A stretch of DNA of 64,000 nucleotides from Capnocytophaga bilenii (GTDB lineage: Bacteria; Bacteroidota; Bacteroidia; Flavobacteriales; Flavobacteriaceae): positions 372,001-436,000 of the forward strand of contig NZ_JAGDYP010000002.1 of assembly GCF_017565765.1 (NCBI RefSeq). Reading direction: 5' to 3'. Below are positions 33,709 through 41,853 of this stretch, one piece after another. The position numbers were made by a program, and so were the translations under genes. Positions within the stretch are counted from its first letter, which is position 1, and every line of letters starts with the position of its first letter. The notes beneath the pieces were generated by a model. The model searched no databases. It saw only the letters and a list, made by a program, of their open reading frames with translations, and was not told where the DNA came from.

Positions 33709-34509
33709 TCAAGATAGTAAGACTGCTATGTTGAGGTATTGTCCTAATAAAACCGATACGGCTACGGCTATCAGCCATTTAGGGTTACGCTTGTTGTGGG
33801 CACTCATCAATCCTACGAAAGGCACTACAAAAGTCAATGCCAACATTAGCAATACTGTTGGAGCATAGCCATTAGTCCACCATCGTTGGTAGTAGGCAGT
33901 TTCTTCAGGAATATTAGTGTACCATATCAGCATATATTGCGAAAACCACAAGTATGCCCATACAAAAGCAAAAGCAAAGAGGTATTTACCTAAATCGTGC
34001 CAGTGTTGCGGTTTTACTTCGGGCAAATATCCCTTTCGCTGTGCATATACAGCCGCAACAATAAGCAAGGCAACCCCCGAAAGAAGAAAACTACTAAATA
34101 CATACCAGCCCAACAAGCTACTATACCAATGCACTGCAGGAGGCACCAACCAGTCGTAGGCTATAGGGGTAATGCTAATAAAGCTAAATATCAGCAATAG
34201 TATCTCATATCGTTTTGATTTCTGAAACAAAGCGTATCTATATAAAGCATAGCCTGCCATATATAGCAACGAGCGCCCCAATAGCCATAAAGGTTGAGAA
34301 TAGCCACTATCGGCTTGCAAGGTTATGAAAGCAAGTACCCCCCATAGCGTAGCCATACACATCCACAACGGAGCCGTAAGCACACGTGTTAGTGGGTATA
34401 AAGGGGCAAACCATTCGGCATTGCAAACTCTGTTGATAGCTCCAAACACCAACAACCCTACTAATGTAAGGCTACAAAATACCGTTGTTATGTACAGATA
34501 ACTTATCAT
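33709..34509 (-). CDS. Alternative complex III subunit ActF (short form)
   Basis: 266 residues with about seven membrane helices. The conserved ActF segment KYLFAFAFVWAYLWFSQYMLIWY followed by TNIPEETAYY is clear. Typical ActF proteins are around 400 residues or more, so this is a short form, missing part of the N-terminal helix bundle. It overlaps the stop of the upstream ActCDE fusion by 4 bases (ATGA type), so translation is coupled. ActF forms part of the membrane arm of the quinol:electron-carrier oxidoreductase. Confidence 0.8.
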   Translation of the reverse strand: MISYLYITTVFCSLTLVGLLVFGAINRVCNAEWFAPLYPLTRVLTAPLWMCMATLWGVLAFITLQADSGYSQPLWLLGRSLLYMAGYALYRYALFQKSKRYEILLLIFSFISITPIAYDWLVPPAVHWYSSLLGWYVFSSFLLSGVALLIVAAVYAQRKGYLPEVKPQHWHDLGKYLFAFAFVWAYLWFSQYMLIWYTNIPEETAYYQRWWTNGYAPTVLLMLALTFVVPFVGLMSAHNKRNPKWLIAVAVSVLLGQYLNIAVLLS

Positions 34510-36779
34510 TGTGGGGCAGCTATTTGTTCTACATATAATGTTACTTGCCAGCGTTCTTTTTCGGTAAGCTGGGTAGCGAAGTCGTTCATTGCATTTCTTC
34601 CGTAGTAGATAACGTGATAGATACTTCCAGCGGTAATATCAATATTTTTATAGTTGGGTACTCCAAATATTTTTCCTCGTTCTATCAATATCCCTTTTCC
34701 GTCTCCCTTTTCGCCGTGGCATAGCGCACAATAGATGTCGTATAGCACTTTGCCCTGTGTAAGGTGTTGGCTGCGCTGTAGGCTATCGGCTGCCAAAGGA
34801 TTTTGTAGCTGTTTTTTAGCCTGCTCGTAGCCTTCTAAAGTGTTGGGGTAGGGGTAAGGAAGGTCGCCGCGTTTTATTGTATTGGCAGGAGGTGCTAAAG
34901 GGGGAAGTTCGTAAGCCTCGTAGGCAGCACTTTCGTACATATCGGGGGCAAATGTAGCTGTAGGAAGCTCATTGTTCCTGCACGAAGCCAATAGCAACAA
35001 GCCTACTAAAGGCAGCACCCGCGTGATAACAAATTTATTATCAGTACTTTTTCTGATAGGATTAGTAGCTTTTTGAAATGGGAATAACCTACTTCGCCAT
35101 AAGAAACTAAGTACTAATAAATGAGCTGAAAAATACACTATAAATTCAAAAATAATAGGTACGAACGAAGGTAAGTTCTGCCAAAAAGTTTCGTTAGGTT
35201 TGCCGCCAAAGTTTTGAGGCCAGCTCTCTATCATAGTATAGTAACACAGCCAGCTGCCAAAGAGCAAGCCCAAGCAACCATATACAAAAGTAGCCTTGCC
35301 CAATCTACTCTCTTTTATTCCTAACGCCTTATCCAACCCTTCTACAGCAAAAGGCGTATATACTTCTTTTATAGCAACTTTCTCTTTTTTTAATTGACTT
35401 ACTGTCAATAGCAATTCTTCTGCTGTTGCACATTCTATCGTCTCGCTATTGGTGTTGCTTGCTGCTTCTTTATCTCCAATTACGGGTGTTACAGCTTTTA
35501 TTTCCCATTGAGCTATCATCGGGAAAGTACGTGCGTATAACAAGAAAAGAGCTAAAAAGAGTCCCAAAGTACCTATAAATATGCCAATATCAATGTACGA
35601 AGGACTAAAAAGTGTCCAAGATGAGGGTAAATAATCCTTGTGCAACGAACCTACTATGATTACAAAACGCTCAAACCACATTCCCACACACACTACAATA
35701 GCTATAAATACAGAAAAAGCAATACTTTGGCGCAGTTTTTTCAGCCATAATAGTTGTGGTAAACACACATTACAAACCACCATCAACCAAAAAGCCCAAG
35801 CATAAGCCCCTGTAGCGCGGTTGCTGAATACGAATAACTCGTGAGGGTTGCCCGATAGCAGCGCCACAAATAATTCGGTGAGATAAGCTACAGCCACAAG
35901 GCTCCCCGTTACTAATATGATACTATTGATAAGGTTAATGTGTTGTAGTGTAATATATTGTTGCAATTTGCATACTTTTCGTAAGATAATCAGTAGCAGG
36001 CTCACCATTGCAAAGCCCGAAAAGATAGCACCAGCCACAAAGTAAGGCGGGAAGATAGTAGTGTGCCAACCCGGTATTACCGAAGTAGCAAAATCAAAAG
36101 ACACGATGGTGTGTACCGAAATTACTAAAGGCGTAGCAATGCCCGCAAGCAGTAGCATCACTAGCTCCAAGCGTTGCCAGTCTTTGGCTCGCCCGCTCCA
36201 TCCAAAGCTCAAGATGCCGTAAATATGCCGTTGCAAAGGTTTTACAGCTCGGTCGCGCAGCATAGCAAAGTCGGGGAGTAACCCTACCCACCAAAATACC
36301 AACGATACCGAAAAGTAAGTAGCTATGGCAAAAACGTCCCATAGCAGGGGTGAGTTCATATTATCCCACAACGACCCATATTGGTTGGGCACAGGCAGCA
36401 TAAAGTGCAACAGCCAAGGTCTGCCCATATGCAGTATGGGGTAAATACCCGCTTGTATTACTGCAAATATAGTCATGGCTTCTGCCGAGCGGTTGATGGC
36501 TACGCGCCATCGTTGTCTGAAAAGCAGTAATATAGCCGAAATAAATGTTCCTGCGTGTCCTATGCCTATCCACCATACAAAGTTTGTGATATCCCACGCC
36601 CATTGCACCGTGTTGTTCAGCCCCCACACACCTATCCCTTGGCTTACGGTCAACCACATACACCAGCCTCCCCAAGCAGCAGCACTACAAGCTATTGCAA
36701 AGGCAAGCCACCAACCTTTAGTAGCTTTGCGCTCTATAGGGCGTGCTATATCATTGCTGATGTTGTGATAGGTATTCAT
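34506..36779 (-). CDS. Alternative complex III ActC-ActD-ActE fusion protein
   Basis: One uninterrupted 757-codon frame covering three subunits usually made separately. Residues about 1-430: NrfD/PsrC-like quinol-binding protein ActC with about ten helices (VWWIGIGHAGTFISAILLL, FPPYFVAGAIFSGFAMVSLL). About 440-590: ActD (DUF3341) with ATAEELLLTVSQLKKEKV, the PFAVEGLDKAL segment and two helices. About 600-757: ActE monohaem cytochrome c with one CALCH haem motif and a Met ligand candidate in NAMNDF. A hydrophobic stretch that would be ActE's lipoprotein signal (LPLVGLLLLASC) is now an internal membrane segment. Works with ActB and ActF to pass electrons from quinol to the periplasm. Confidence 0.85.
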   Translation of the reverse strand: MNTYHNISNDIARPIERKATKGWWLAFAIACSAAAWGGWCMWLTVSQGIGVWGLNNTVQWAWDITNFVWWIGIGHAGTFISAILLLFRQRWRVAINRSAEAMTIFAVIQAGIYPILHMGRPWLLHFMLPVPNQYGSLWDNMNSPLLWDVFAIATYFSVSLVFWWVGLLPDFAMLRDRAVKPLQRHIYGILSFGWSGRAKDWQRLELVMLLLAGIATPLVISVHTIVSFDFATSVIPGWHTTIFPPYFVAGAIFSGFAMVSLLLIILRKVCKLQQYITLQHINLINSIILVTGSLVAVAYLTELFVALLSGNPHELFVFSNRATGAYAWAFWLMVVCNVCLPQLLWLKKLRQSIAFSVFIAIVVCVGMWFERFVIIVGSLHKDYLPSSWTLFSPSYIDIGIFIGTLGLFLALFLLYARTFPMIAQWEIKAVTPVIGDKEAASNTNSETIECATAEELLLTVSQLKKEKVAIKEVYTPFAVEGLDKALGIKESRLGKATFVYGCLGLLFGSWLCYYTMIESWPQNFGGKPNETFWQNLPSFVPIIFEFIVYFSAHLLVLSFLWRSRLFPFQKATNPIRKSTDNKFVITRVLPLVGLLLLASCRNNELPTATFAPDMYESAAYEAYELPPLAPPANTIKRGDLPYPYPNTLEGYEQAKKQLQNPLAADSLQRSQHLTQGKVLYDIYCALCHGEKGDGKGILIERGKIFGVPNYKNIDITAGSIYHVIYYGRNAMNDFATQLTEKERWQVTLYVEQIAAPQ

Positions 36780-36801
36780 TTATTATAGATATTCAAAGTT
36801 A

Positions 36802-39612
36802 TTAATTCACCACCAATGTTTGGTACACCACATTAGGGTCTGTTCCTATTTCTGCCAATAATTGGTACATACGGTCGCTGGCTGTTGCGGCAGCAATATC
36901 GCTTTCGGGGTCGTTGGCATCGCCAAATACCATTGCGCCACTATTGCAGGCAGCGGCGCAAGCCACTACATTCTTAAAGCCGTCTTTGCCTATAGCCTTG
37001 CCTTCTTTTTTAGCCTTGAGTATCACCTCTTGGGTGCGTTGTATGCACAGCGAACATTTCTCCATTACCCCACGCGAACGCACGGTTACATCGGGGTTCA
37101 GTACCATACGCCCTATATCGTTGTTCATATGGTAGTTGAAAGCATCGTTTTGGCTATAGTCAAACCAGTTGAAACGCCTCACTTTATACGGGCAGTTGTT
37201 CGCACAATAGCGCGTACCCACACAGCGGCTATACGCCATCTGGTTTTGCCCTTGGGCACCGTGCATTGTTGCCCCTACAGGACATACATTTTCGCAAGGT
37301 GCATTTTCGCAATGCTGACAGAGCATTGGCTGGAACCCTACATTCTCGCCCTCAGCTTCATAGCGGTCTATGCGCAGCCAATGCATATCGCGTTGTTTGG
37401 CTACTTCTTCTTTGCCCACTACGGGGATATTGTTTTCAGCATTACAAGCAATCACACAAGCAGCACAACCTGTGCAAGCATTCAGGTCTATAGATAGCTT
37501 GAAATGATGTGGCGAAGGTGTTTTTTTTGTGTTGGGAGCTATTTTGGGGCGAGGATTCCACTGCTCGGCAGGCGAGTTGAGAAAATCATTTAACGAAACA
37601 CGCCTCAGTAGGTCAGTTTTGCCTGCCAAGTCTTTTTGTACTTGCACGCAGGCAAAAGTGTGGGTACCTTCAGCCTTTTTTATCGTTACCCGTAGTACCT
37701 GATCTTCTGCCTCGTAAAAAGGATAACCATTCACGCCCACTTGCAGTTCGGCAGGCAAGCCTATGTTACGCCCGTAGCCCAAAGCCATAGCAGCACTGCC
37801 TGCGGCTTGTCCTTGTTGTATAAGTACAGGTACTTCAACGCTGATGTCTTTAGGGTTAGTAATACACACCTTGTCCGCCATTAAAGCACCATTGCTGTCT
37901 TGCCAATTACGCACCCCTAAGCGCTGCGCATCAGAGGGCGAAAGGCTGAGGTAGTTATCCCAGCTAATGCGACTGATAGGGTCGGGAAGCTCTTGCAGCC
38001 AAGGGTTGCTCGCTTGCTGCCCATCGCCCATTGCTACCGATGAATATAGTGTAAGTTCTACCTTATGAGCAGGTATTTCAGTATTTACAAAAGTAAGCCC
38101 CAATAGGGGAGTCGCAACTCCCTCTTCTTCCACCCATTGGCGAGGTTTCAGTGCTGCGGTAGCCGCTTCTTGCACATAAGTGCCATTTTGCAAAGCCTCT
38201 TCCCAGCGTTTGCCTTTTAGTAGGTTATTTTCCCAATAGGCTTTTATATAATCGTAATAGGTTTGCGCACTGCCCATCCATTGCAACATACAGTCCTGCC
38301 ATTGGCGCGTACCAAAAAGCGGACGTATCACAGGCTGCATCAGTCCGTAATGATGTTTTTTAAAGACAACATCACCCCACGATTCTAAATAGTGTGAGGT
38401 AGGAACAAAATATTTCGTTAGTACGCTTGTTTCATTAGGTTTTAAGCCGAAAGTAGCCGTAAAAGGTACCTCTTGTAGCTCGTTGGCAAACCGCTTACCC
38501 ATAGAAGAACTAAAAATAGGATTTAGCTCGTTGATAAGTAGCACCCCCACCTTGTTGTCGCGCATCAGGTAAGTGAGCTCGTATAGGGCTTGGGGGTTAC
38601 CTTGCTTTGTCAGTACGGGGGTAGCTGTGCTATAAGCTTCGCTGCGCAATTGTTCATTGATACAATAGGTGATATAATGTGCCTGCCACGAAGACATTCC
38701 TGTAACCACTACCGCTTGGCTGCCAGCTTGTTTCAGCTCCTGTGCCAGCTGTTGCATACGGCGGTCTATAGTTGCCGATAGCTTGTATTCGGTATCAACG
38801 TTTTCGCCCGTAAGGTAGCTGTAAAGTTTAGCTAAGGCTATGTATTGCGAGCTGGGGGCAAGGGCAATGCGTTCATCAGCTTTGGCTCCCGTGATAGTCA
38901 TAGCCGCTTCTATTTGAATATGGCGCGACATCCCATTTTCTTTATTCGGGATACGTCCTTGCGCATAACCTGCTTCATAGCCCCCTGCGTACCAGTCGCC
39001 CAAAAAGTCGGCTGCAAATGAAACGATAAGCGAGGCTTTGCCAAAATTGTAGTCAGGCAAAGCGCGCTCACCATAAAGTTTTTCAAAAGCATCTAGAGCG
39101 TGATGTTCAGTAACAGCATCATACTCTATAAGTCTAAAAGTAGGATATTTTTCTTTAAAGGCAGCCAGCAGAGCGTAGGCTGATGGGCTTGCCAAAGTGT
39201 GGCTCAATAGCACAATCTCTTTGCCCTCTTCTTTGGCTTTGTTTAGGGCAGCTATGGTTTCTTGGTTTAGCTTATCCCATTGGGCAGGTTCGCTGTTAGG
39301 GTGCTTCCTGCCCTCGTCATACAAGCCCAACACCGAAGCCAATACCCGCGCATTGGTTCCCTTGCCTGCTAAGGCTTCGGGGTTGTTCCCTACAAAAATA
39401 GGTCTGCCTTCACGCGTCTTTACCAATACGCTGGCAAAGTCCTGTCCGTTAGCTATACAAGTAGCGTAATAGCTCGCTTCACCAGGTACGATAGTTTCTG
39501 GTTGAATAAGGTAAGGGATAGTTTTATGCACAACCCCTTCACAGCTCGCCAATGCCGCAGCTGCAGTACCAAAACCTAAGTATTTCAAGAAATCACGCCT
39601 TGTGGTAGCCAT
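36802..39612 (-). CDS. Alternative complex III ActB: molybdopterin-oxidoreductase-like Fe-S subunit
   Basis: 936 residues. Twin-arginine signal (TRRDFLKYLGFGTAAAALASC) starts right at the N-terminus, without the extension of about 50-60 residues often seen before it in Bacteroidota. A large molybdopterin-oxidoreductase-like domain lacking cofactor is followed by a ferredoxin-like domain with Cys clusters CTGCAACVIAC, CQHCENAPCENVCP, CVGTRYCANNCP and CSLCIQR, plus CAAACNSGAMVFGD where the usual Pro is replaced by Asn. It carries the Fe-S chain of the quinol oxidoreductase. Upstream (39624) is a peptidase gene, where ActA, the pentahaem cytochrome, would normally be. Spacing to the ActCDE gene is 22 bases. 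Confidence 0.88.
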   Translation of the reverse strand: MATTRRDFLKYLGFGTAAAALASCEGVVHKTIPYLIQPETIVPGEASYYATCIANGQDFASVLVKTREGRPIFVGNNPEALAGKGTNARVLASVLGLYDEGRKHPNSEPAQWDKLNQETIAALNKAKEEGKEIVLLSHTLASPSAYALLAAFKEKYPTFRLIEYDAVTEHHALDAFEKLYGERALPDYNFGKASLIVSFAADFLGDWYAGGYEAGYAQGRIPNKENGMSRHIQIEAAMTITGAKADERIALAPSSQYIALAKLYSYLTGENVDTEYKLSATIDRRMQQLAQELKQAGSQAVVVTGMSSWQAHYITYCINEQLRSEAYSTATPVLTKQGNPQALYELTYLMRDNKVGVLLINELNPIFSSSMGKRFANELQEVPFTATFGLKPNETSVLTKYFVPTSHYLESWGDVVFKKHHYGLMQPVIRPLFGTRQWQDCMLQWMGSAQTYYDYIKAYWENNLLKGKRWEEALQNGTYVQEAATAALKPRQWVEEEGVATPLLGLTFVNTEIPAHKVELTLYSSVAMGDGQQASNPWLQELPDPISRISWDNYLSLSPSDAQRLGVRNWQDSNGALMADKVCITNPKDISVEVPVLIQQGQAAGSAAMALGYGRNIGLPAELQVGVNGYPFYEAEDQVLRVTIKKAEGTHTFACVQVQKDLAGKTDLLRRVSLNDFLNSPAEQWNPRPKIAPNTKKTPSPHHFKLSIDLNACTGCAACVIACNAENNIPVVGKEEVAKQRDMHWLRIDRYEAEGENVGFQPMLCQHCENAPCENVCPVGATMHGAQGQNQMAYSRCVGTRYCANNCPYKVRRFNWFDYSQNDAFNYHMNNDIGRMVLNPDVTVRSRGVMEKCSLCIQRTQEVILKAKKEGKAIGKDGFKNVVACAAACNSGAMVFGDANDPESDIAAATASDRMYQLLAEIGTDPNVVYQTLVVN

Positions 39613-39623
39613 TTTGTTGTATG

Positions 39624-41759
39624 TTATTTTATAATCTTCATTTCATCTATCAGATAACTTGCATCGGCATATTTATCAATGATAAAAAGTATATACCGGA
39701 TGTCCACCATTATATTACGACATATTTTAGGGTCGTAATACACATCGCTCATTGTGCCTTCCCACACACGGTCAAAGTTTAAGCCTATCAAGTTCCCTTT
39801 AGCATCAATCGCTGGGCTACCTGAGTTGCCTCCGGTAGTGTGATTAGTAGCTATAAAGCATACAGGCATCTTGCCATCTTTGCCATAAATGCCATATTCT
39901 TTCCGCTCGTATAAGTAGCGCAGCTTTGCAGGTACATCAAATTCGTAGTCGTTAGGTATGTATTTTTCCATTACCCCGTCCAAATAAGTAAAAGGTTCGT
40001 ATTTTACAGCATCAGCAGGCGAATAACCTTCCACCTTGCCATAAGTAACCCGCAAAGTACTATTAGCATCGGGGAAAATACGGTCTTCAGGTGTAGCAAA
40101 TTCCAAGATACCTTTCATATACTTGCGCTGCAACCCTGCCAATTTATCAGTAATTTCCTGATAAGGCGAGGCAACCTCTACAAAGTAATATTCTACAATT
40201 TGCTGTATAAACTGCATACCCACATCTTTCTTCAAGATACCTTTAAAAGCCGATTCAGGCAGCTGTAGTGTCTTTTCAATTCCTTCATAAGAAGCCAAAA
40301 ATGAATTGTTGTACAATTTGCCTGTTAGCAGTTTAGCGTTGAAGTTTTGTAAGTTAGGAGGTAAAAACTGTTTAGGCATATTTTTAGCGTAGTAAGCCAC
40401 TGCCTTTTCAAAAACAGCCTTGTCCACTGCTTTGTCATAGTTTTTGTATGAGGTTTTAAAACTTTGCAACAATTCAGCTTTTTTCTCGTTAAAAGCTTCC
40501 TCACCGCGTTGCAAAAGCACGTTTTGCAGCTGCATAATTTTATAACCATTGTTTAGCAAGTCTATATGCCGCATAAATTCCGAAAACAAATCACTCGCTA
40601 CCGAATAGTCAAGCGCTTGGGCGTAGAGTTTTTCCATTTCCGGCAATACAGTTCCGTATTCTGCCTTTCGGCTGTGAGATTCTATATCTTTTTTAAACTC
40701 CTCTTCTTGCTTTTGCTTTATCGCTACAGCCCCCGATTTTTTAAGCCCTTGTGCTTCACCTATCCATTTTTTCCAATAATTGGCAATACTAGCGTATTTA
40801 GAGGCGTATTTTATCTTTATTTCAGGATCGTTACGCATAAAGCTGTCTTGTGTTTTCAGTATCACATCGCGTATCCCTATTTTCATAGGGTTTATCACAT
40901 CTGCCATTTGTGCCACAGCTATAGCAGGCAAATACTCTTGGGTGCGACCAGGGTAGCCAAACACCATTGTAAAATCACCCTCTTTTACCCCTTTTAATGA
41001 TATAGGGAAATAATGCTTAGGTTTGTAAGGTACATTATCTTTAGAGTAAGCCGCAGGGCGATTGTTTTTATCAGCGTATACCCTGAAAAGAGCAAAGTCG
41101 CCCGTGTGCCTTGGCCATACCCAGTTGTCCGTATCCGAACCAAATTTGCCAATAGAGGATGGAGGAGCCCCTACCAAACGCACATCTTTAAACGTTTCTA
41201 CGATAAACAATAAGTACTGATTGCCCTCGTAAAAAGCACGAACTCTACACTCTTGCCACGCCTCTTTAGGTGTGTTGCGCAATACATTATTGATATTACT
41301 CTCTATTTTTGCGGTACGCGCCTCCTCATTCACCAAAGCTTCGGTATCTACTAGTACTTTAGAGGTAATATCCTCTACCCGAACGATAAAAGTAACTCTC
41401 AGGTTTTCATTAGGTAGTTCTTCTTCTTGTTTTTTAGCCCAAAAACCGTAAGTAAGGTAATCATTAGCCAGTGTAGAATGTGATTGTATTTGCGAATACC
41501 CACAATGGTGATTAGTAAGCAGTAAGCCCTTGTTGGAAATCATTTCAGCAGTACAGCCCCCATTAAAGTGAGGTACAGCATCCTTTAGGCTCGATTTGTT
41601 TACTTCGTAAATATCCTTTACCGACATTTTCATTCCCAAGGATTTCATTTCCTTAGCGTTCATACCTTCCAACAGCGAAGGTAACCACATACCGCCTTGC
41701 TGGGCAAAGCCACTTAGCCAAAATAGTAGTAATGCAAAAAGTAATGTAATTTTTCTCAT
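39624..41759 (-). CDS. S46-family dipeptidyl-peptidase, Asp/Glu-specific (DPP11 type)
   Basis: 711 residues from ATG 41759, chosen because a signal peptide (MRKITLLFALLLFWLSGFAQ) begins there; the longer frame from 41813 precedes the promoter. Catalytic His in LLTNHHCGY (about H85), Asp in WPRHTGDFALFRVY, and Ser in TTGGNSGSPAID (about S646). The residue 18 positions after the Ser is Arg (LNFDRVWEG), which matches the Arg673 that gives DPP11 its preference for Asp/Glu at P1; DPP7 has Gly there. It removes dipeptides from periplasmic oligopeptides for amino-acid feeding, as in Porphyromonas and Capnocytophaga. Own -7 element at 41784-41791. Close linkage to actB (11 bases) may give co-transcription. 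Confidence 0.9.
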   Translation of the reverse strand: MRKITLLFALLLFWLSGFAQQGGMWLPSLLEGMNAKEMKSLGMKMSVKDIYEVNKSSLKDAVPHFNGGCTAEMISNKGLLLTNHHCGYSQIQSHSTLANDYLTYGFWAKKQEEELPNENLRVTFIVRVEDITSKVLVDTEALVNEEARTAKIESNINNVLRNTPKEAWQECRVRAFYEGNQYLLFIVETFKDVRLVGAPPSSIGKFGSDTDNWVWPRHTGDFALFRVYADKNNRPAAYSKDNVPYKPKHYFPISLKGVKEGDFTMVFGYPGRTQEYLPAIAVAQMADVINPMKIGIRDVILKTQDSFMRNDPEIKIKYASKYASIANYWKKWIGEAQGLKKSGAVAIKQKQEEEFKKDIESHSRKAEYGTVLPEMEKLYAQALDYSVASDLFSEFMRHIDLLNNGYKIMQLQNVLLQRGEEAFNEKKAELLQSFKTSYKNYDKAVDKAVFEKAVAYYAKNMPKQFLPPNLQNFNAKLLTGKLYNNSFLASYEGIEKTLQLPESAFKGILKKDVGMQFIQQIVEYYFVEVASPYQEITDKLAGLQRKYMKGILEFATPEDRIFPDANSTLRVTYGKVEGYSPADAVKYEPFTYLDGVMEKYIPNDYEFDVPAKLRYLYERKEYGIYGKDGKMPVCFIATNHTTGGNSGSPAIDAKGNLIGLNFDRVWEGTMSDVYYDPKICRNIMVDIRYILFIIDKYADASYLIDEMKIIK

Positions 41760-41783
41760 TTCTTCATAAAAAGTTAATCGGTG

Positions 41784-41791
41784 CAAAGGTA
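41784..41791 (-). promoter_or_regulatory. -7 element for the DPP11 gene
   Basis: The minus strand reads TACCTTTG then C; 25 bases upstream of ATG 41759. Confidence 0.6.
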
Positions 41792-41853
41792 CGAAATAAT
41801 GTTTAATAGTCAATGATTAATGATTAATTCTTTAGAACTATATAATACTCAAC

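Follow-up and report, generated by a model that had tools for sequence, protein, structure and literature searches.

The alternative complex III (ACIII) of Flavobacterium johnsoniae (structure 6btm) comprises ActA, ActB, ActC, ActD, ActE and ActF, with ActC, ActD and ActE as separate chains. Its ActA carries six haems and has a mobile N-terminal haem domain, and the sixth haem is thought to shuttle electrons to an aa3 oxidase, a transfer that deletion of actE does not stop (PMC8552683, available in part). In the Rhodothermus marinus complex (6f0k), according to the same source, ActA is without the sixth-haem domain and ActE is the postulated donor to a caa3 oxidase; whether electrons leave through ActE or through the head of ActA is debated. 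A fusion of ActD to ActE (Mros0042), with ActC under its own gene number, has been proposed in Melioribacter roseus (PMC3534657, available in part). The subject here is an ACIII gene cluster of Capnocytophaga bilenii, located in a 64,000-nucleotide stretch of contig NZ_JAGDYP010000002.1 (positions 372,001 to 436,000) that is referred to as the window. It contains actCDE, a single gene for ActC, ActD and ActE and a new gene-fusion variant of the known complex.

All six F. johnsoniae subunits have counterparts in C. bilenii, with C, D and E in the same order. In contrast to that system, the three are encoded by one gene, ActF is short, actA lies elsewhere in the genome, and ActA has five haem motifs. 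The lack of a sixth-haem domain in ActA is shared with R. marinus. The joining of ActD to ActE in one frame is shared with M. roseus and with a second locus, L012 (380 aa), although ActC is separate in both. Since such D-E fusions exist, separate C, D and E chains are a variable feature of ACIII, and the view taken in a preliminary description of this DNA, that the complex normally has six or seven separate subunits, was too strict.

The actCDE gene (34506..36779, minus strand, as are all act genes of the cluster) is one open reading frame of 757 aa (85.5 kDa) with no internal stop, so that C, D and E are not separate polypeptides in this genome. Pfam domains occur in the order NrfD (residues 53–378), ActD/PF11821 (452–585) and Cytochrome_CBB3 (673–750), and a search of solved-structure sequences aligned residues 3–445 with 6btm_C, 460–586 with 6btm_D and 600–753 with 6btm_E. 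The NrfD-like ActC part (residues 1–445; 35445..36779; 6btm_C E 5e-214) has ten hydrophobic segments and is identical at 23 of 23 residues listed for the quinol site and ion channel of R. marinus ActC (PMC8076601, available in part), when residue numbers are transferred through the offsets of the 6f0k_C alignment. The ActD part (residues 452–585; 35025..35426) matches PF11821 at 128 bits against a cut-off of 25.7, over profile positions 9–142 of 170. Its C-terminal soluble part is lost, as alignment with three relatives (G001, G005 and G007) indicates; here, G000 is the C. bilenii genome, other G numbers are other sampled genomes, and L numbers are loci. An internal ActE lipoprotein signal (RVLPLVGLLLLAS) ending at the lipobox Cys600 (LASC) occupies 34980..35021. 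It leads into the ActE part (residues 600–757; 34509..34982; 6btm_E E 5e-36; PF13442), a monohaem cytochrome c in which the CALCH haem-binding motif (residues 684–688; 34716..34730) is identified by alignment and the downstream Met region is conserved.

The rest of the cluster is also recognizable. Upstream of actCDE, actB (36802..39612; 936 aa; 6btm_B E 2.5e-283) encodes the Fe-S and molybdopterin-fold subunit, and the 6btm_B alignment takes in the Fe-S region. The ActB N-terminus is that of a Tat-type lipoprotein (RRDFLK...ALASC), with TAT_signal_seq and Fer4 matches, and residue 1 of the 6btm_B chain is aligned to Cys24. Downstream, overlapping actCDE by 4 nt, is a shortened actF (33709..34509; 266 aa; 6btm_F E 1e-32) with no Pfam or NCBIfam match. 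The best-aligned stretch of ActF (95–261) pairs with 240–405 of 6btm_F, i.e., its second half, and alignment shows it to be short relative to the 384–425-aa ActF of three relatives. These results bear out much of the preliminary description, which had read from the letters alone a 757-codon frame with an NrfD-like protein, a DUF3341 domain and a monohaem CALCH cytochrome in order, flanked by ActB and a short ActF and retaining LLLLASC from an ActE signal; the three parts do separate into ActC, ActD and ActE by profile and structure matches.

The preliminary description also held that ActA was missing and that the Fe-S subunit delivered electrons to the one tethered cytochrome. The first claim holds for the cluster, as there is no actA beside actB within the window, and this is what could favour a complex that is devoid of ActA and passes electrons from ActB straight to the ActE haem. 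It fails for the genome. A profile built from ten relatives located ActA on another contig (G000:C17:22587-23285; E 3e-127), where an intact frame of 232 aa (L047:9588-10286) encodes five CxxCH motifs and matches 6btm_A over its C-terminal part (217–444; E 1e-90). An actA gene elsewhere in the genome, expressed with this complex, is what the preliminary description had named as fatal to its claim, so that at the gene level the claim falls and, with it, the proposed electron route; a complex without ActA is now very improbable. At the same level, ActA, ActB, ActC, ActD, ActE and ActF are all represented in C. bilenii.

ActA was matched by the same profile in all 20 genomes of the genus, as a six-CxxCH protein in 13 and as a short, five-CxxCH protein in the other seven (G000, G007, G008, G009, G010, G013 and G018; five motifs in 7/7). 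Separation of actA from actB is also seen in G013, where it lies ~10 kb downstream of actF and is followed by ComF-, GldD- and YqeY-like genes. In C. bilenii, actA and the end of coaE share 4 nt; after actA come a phosphoribosyltransferase-domain (ComF-like) gene and then gldD. The G013 neighbours were named by eye from their N-termini; only the G000 genes were scanned, with GldD of G000 as the sole equivalog match. Two other arrangements were noted. In G008, actA is downstream of actE (L031:10095-10718) and lacks ~33 residues before the last haem, while actF (L053:2092-2877) adjoins a gene identified by eye as coaE-like, a neighbour similar in kind to that of actA in G000. In G016, contigs C33 and C73 both carry ActD and ActA matches of equal score, perhaps an assembly duplicate.

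Taken together, the alignment of one chain with three chains of 6btm, the 23 conserved ActC residues, the ActB match and the five-CxxCH ActA suggest that C. bilenii probably makes a working ACIII, a menaquinol:cytochrome c oxidoreductase that takes four genes rather than six: actA at its separate locus, actB, actCDE and the short actF, with a NirK-cytochrome nitrite reductase (NirK-c) as the best candidate acceptor in this species. Menaquinol would be oxidized at the conserved ActC site, and electrons would then pass through the ActB Fe-S clusters, the five ActA haems and the ActE haem to a periplasmic acceptor, possibly by way of a monohaem, lipoprotein-like cytochrome encoded at L049:6824-7321. 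Assembly, activity, the order of electron carriers and the acceptor are all predicted from sequence. Because the sixth-haem domain of ActA is missing, ActE is the likelier electron exit in this organism.

Several features weigh against this reading. The fused genomes have a reduced ActD and ActF and a shorter ActB N-terminus, while the short ActA lacks the N-terminal haem domain present in the other 13 genomes; together these changes could weaken function. They also lend themselves to a different explanation, in which ACIII is a relic undergoing loss where cytochrome c oxidase is gone, and fusion, truncation and scattering of the genes are signs of decay. Searches for four acceptor types found none in two of the genomes concerned (G009 and G013), as would suit a relic. 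Yet ActD and ActA were found in 20/20 genus genomes, all of the listed ActC residues are intact in C. bilenii, and all seven short ActA proteins keep five CxxCH motifs, which makes decay an improbable account.

The origin of the fusion can be followed within the genus. The survey of relatives called for by the preliminary description found separate C, D and E in 14 of 20 genomes, fused C+D in five, and C+D+E in C. bilenii alone. The frame bearing ActD is accordingly 174–188 aa in the first group, 598–607 aa (ActC plus ActD) in the second and 757 aa in the third. ActB, C, D and E were present at the loci of all 19 relatives; 18 of these also have a complete ActF, and the remaining one, in L031, is truncated by the locus end and completed in L053. 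In a tree of ActB plus ActC from the 20 genomes and four outgroup loci, the six genomes with fused C+D, including C. bilenii, group with a support of 100, and the C-terminal part of ActD is lost in all six (relative to G001, G005 and G007). Less favourably, the genus is not a single clade in this tree: outgroup G167 joins the 13 genomes with six-haem ActA (support of 82), G007 groups among outgroups (65), and the position of C. bilenii inside the six has a support of 63.

The D-E junction indicates how the last step took place. The distance from ActD FVI to the lipobox Cys is 42 nt in C. bilenii vs. 85, 95, 102, 162 and 169 nt in the five C+D relatives, and the ATG start of ActE is absent. A junction shorter by 43 to 127 nt that has also lost a start codon is the product of a deletion and could not have come from a one-base sequencing error. 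The fusion thus arose stepwise from separate genes, through C+D to C+D+E, the last step by deletion, as read from these sequences. An artefact of sequencing or assembly might be suspected, since the full fusion occurs in one genome of one strain. It is extremely improbable, however, given that C+D is fused in five other assemblies, that a single indel is insufficient to explain the junction, and that no run of more than five bases lies near it. The hidden-stop error that the preliminary description had considered is rejected on these grounds. The within-genus series of separate, C+D and C+D+E genes illustrates how a respiratory complex becomes compacted.

Outside the genus, fusions of this kind appear to be rare. 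A family-wide sample of 219 genomes yielded ActD in 215, in frames of 174–214 aa among the matches listed, and in frames of 142–298 aa in 20 genomes chosen by eye among the weakest scorers; in three of the latter (G167, G226 and G146), examined loci contain a separate ActC. A phylum-wide search with the fused protein gave matches in 252 of 296 genomes, a sample from which the five C+D relatives were absent. Among the phylum matches listed, an alignment over residues 1–757 was obtained in C. bilenii only, and the others that covered both ActC and ActD were interrupted by stops, as expected of adjacent genes. Of 26 loci examined, one is that of C. bilenii, and a single frame for C and D was seen in none of the other 25. 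No further C+D fusion was thus seen in the family or phylum among matches listed or loci examined, and a rare fusion elsewhere is possible. Literature searches for ACIII with Capnocytophaga and for DUF3341 found nothing in a searched set that excluded most subscription papers, and the fusions described in partly available literature on ACIII and gene fusion are pufLM rather than ACIII.

The internal ActE signal raises the question of whether the 757-aa chain is cut. Hydropathy analysis passes 12 segments, i.e., ten of ActC, one of ActD and the old ActE signal. ActD is expected to carry two hydrophobic segments, the second of which is below the threshold here. With two ActD segments, the signal would be the thirteenth helix, placing the cytochrome in the periplasm; the signal itself is probably the membrane-crossing helix that brings it there. 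The lipobox L-A-S-C (LLLLASC ending at Cys600), judged by eye against the usual consensus, is a full match and follows a basic and hydrophobic stretch (RKSTDNKFVITRVLPLVGLLLLASC). In the match table, residue 600 is also aligned to the first residue of 6btm_E, which fits cleavage at that position in F. johnsoniae, whose ActE is depicted as lipid-anchored (PMC8552683, available in part). On this sequence evidence, cleavage before Cys600, yielding ActCD (67.8 kDa) and a lipid-anchored ActE (17.8 kDa), is marginally favoured. Against it, a recent fusion would retain its lipobox in any case, so that an intact lipobox suggests but does not show cleavage. The structure model is too poor to inform the question.

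The other outcome is an uncut 85-kDa chain in which the old signal serves as a permanent extra transmembrane helix and holds the cytochrome against ActC. It would follow naturally from a single uninterrupted frame in which no ATG occurs from the end of the ActD part to Cys600; that absence makes separate synthesis of ActE unlikely, and although in-frame GTG and TTG codons remain before Cys600 (e.g., GTG at 588), initiation at one of them would leave out the basic N-region. A helix is also predicted at 582–601 in the structure model, which was built from an alignment holding ActC rows only and has a mean pLDDT of 55.7, with ActD, the linker and ActE mostly <50 and poor quality outside ActC. Set against the complete lipobox and the correspondence of residue 600 with the first residue of 6btm_E, the uncut chain is plausible, at a little under an even chance. 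Bradyrhizobium fbcH provides a precedent for a processed cytochrome b-c1 precursor; one literature search for such a precursor found nothing in a searched set that excluded most subscription papers.

The more intriguing aspect of the finding is that ACIII is kept and compacted in genomes without a detected cytochrome c oxidase, which leaves its electron acceptor as a puzzle. A strong COX1 match (frames of 726–761 aa) occurs in the 13 genomes with six-CxxCH ActA, and the one scanned (G019) is a CcoN-CcoO fusion of the cbb3 type. No haem-copper oxygen reductase was found in the seven genomes with five-CxxCH ActA, all six fused genomes included, which have only weaker COX1 matches. The sole match of C. 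bilenii is a quinol nitric oxide reductase; those of G007, G009, G013 and G018 are 747-aa proteins that start as the G000 protein does, and for those of G008 and G010, score and frame were the sole criteria. Lack of the sixth ActA haem is thereby linked to lack of a haem-copper oxygen reductase. This link is relevant to the question of ActE or ActA as electron exit and differs from R. marinus, with its caa3 oxidase. Cytochrome bd oxidase is present in 10/20 genomes, among them all seven with short ActA.

Four types of acceptor were searched, the haem-copper oxygen reductases being the first. NosZ (9/20 genomes) is rejected, as it was found in none of the seven that lack a detected haem-copper oxygen reductase. 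Cytochrome c peroxidase (14/20) is rejected as a general acceptor; only three of the seven have it, and it was not found in C. bilenii. Full-length NirK-c occurs in eight genomes, including four of the seven and C. bilenii itself (TIGR02376, 332 bits vs. a cut-off of 296), and four further weak matches cover the cytochrome part only. Against its being the acceptor is that, with four of seven, NirK-c cannot serve all of them, and G009 and G013 have no haem-copper oxygen reductase, NosZ, NirK-c or cytochrome c peroxidase in searches for these four types. NrfA, present in 20/20 genomes, is not needed as a client of ACIII, since a four-CxxCH NrfH-like gene lies beside it in all four loci examined (G000, G009, G013 and G007; the NrfH profile was run for G000 only).

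The division of the 20 genomes into two branches agrees with a described split of Capnocytophaga, in which clade II is missing cbb3 and nosZ, has bd, and commonly has nrfA, nrfH and nirK (PMC13228040, available in part). This profile is much like that of the seven short-ActA genomes; the available text of that source does not mention "complex III". The traits that these genomes share trace back to one or two events of descent, the place of G007 being unsure, and are thus not twenty independent tests; their "loss" in the seven-genome branch is likewise deduced. A broader scenario is that, in this bd-oxidase branch, ACIII was uncoupled from oxygen respiration and rebuilt as a compact reductase of nitrite or other acceptors after loss of cytochrome c oxidase and of the sixth, shuttling haem domain, and that, in C. 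bilenii, ActE is made as an internal lipoprotein which signal peptidase II frees from a polytopic precursor. In this full form, the scenario is tentative and rather unlikely.

The NirK-c gene of C. bilenii is part of a one-strand cluster on contig G000:C16 (L100:5578-13472, L050:5968-7404) that includes two NarK-like transporters and a NasC-like molybdenum reductase (821 bits, under a cut-off of 1100), as well as an Fe-S protein, a Rieske protein and MoaA- and ModABC-like genes (by eye). Nitrate reductase genes are said to be absent from all Capnocytophaga (PMC13228040, available in part). Two of the 20 genomes have a second COX1 gene, with a 601-aa frame, close to their act genes (G001:C1:1170535-1171971 and G017:C136:7142-8578).

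The next gene upstream of actB, 11 nt away, encodes an S46 peptidase (window 39624-41813), as the preliminary description had recognized in calling it a peptidase. It is Dpp7-like, with a score of 615 bits to the Dpp7 model (under the cut-off of 1200), and is possibly co-transcribed with actB. Finally, a gene of ~645 aa lies between actB and actCD in G009, G013 and G018 (L032:11226-13157, L036:6240-8180 and L041:6401-8332), and the G013 copy, the one scanned, matches glycosyl hydrolase family 20.

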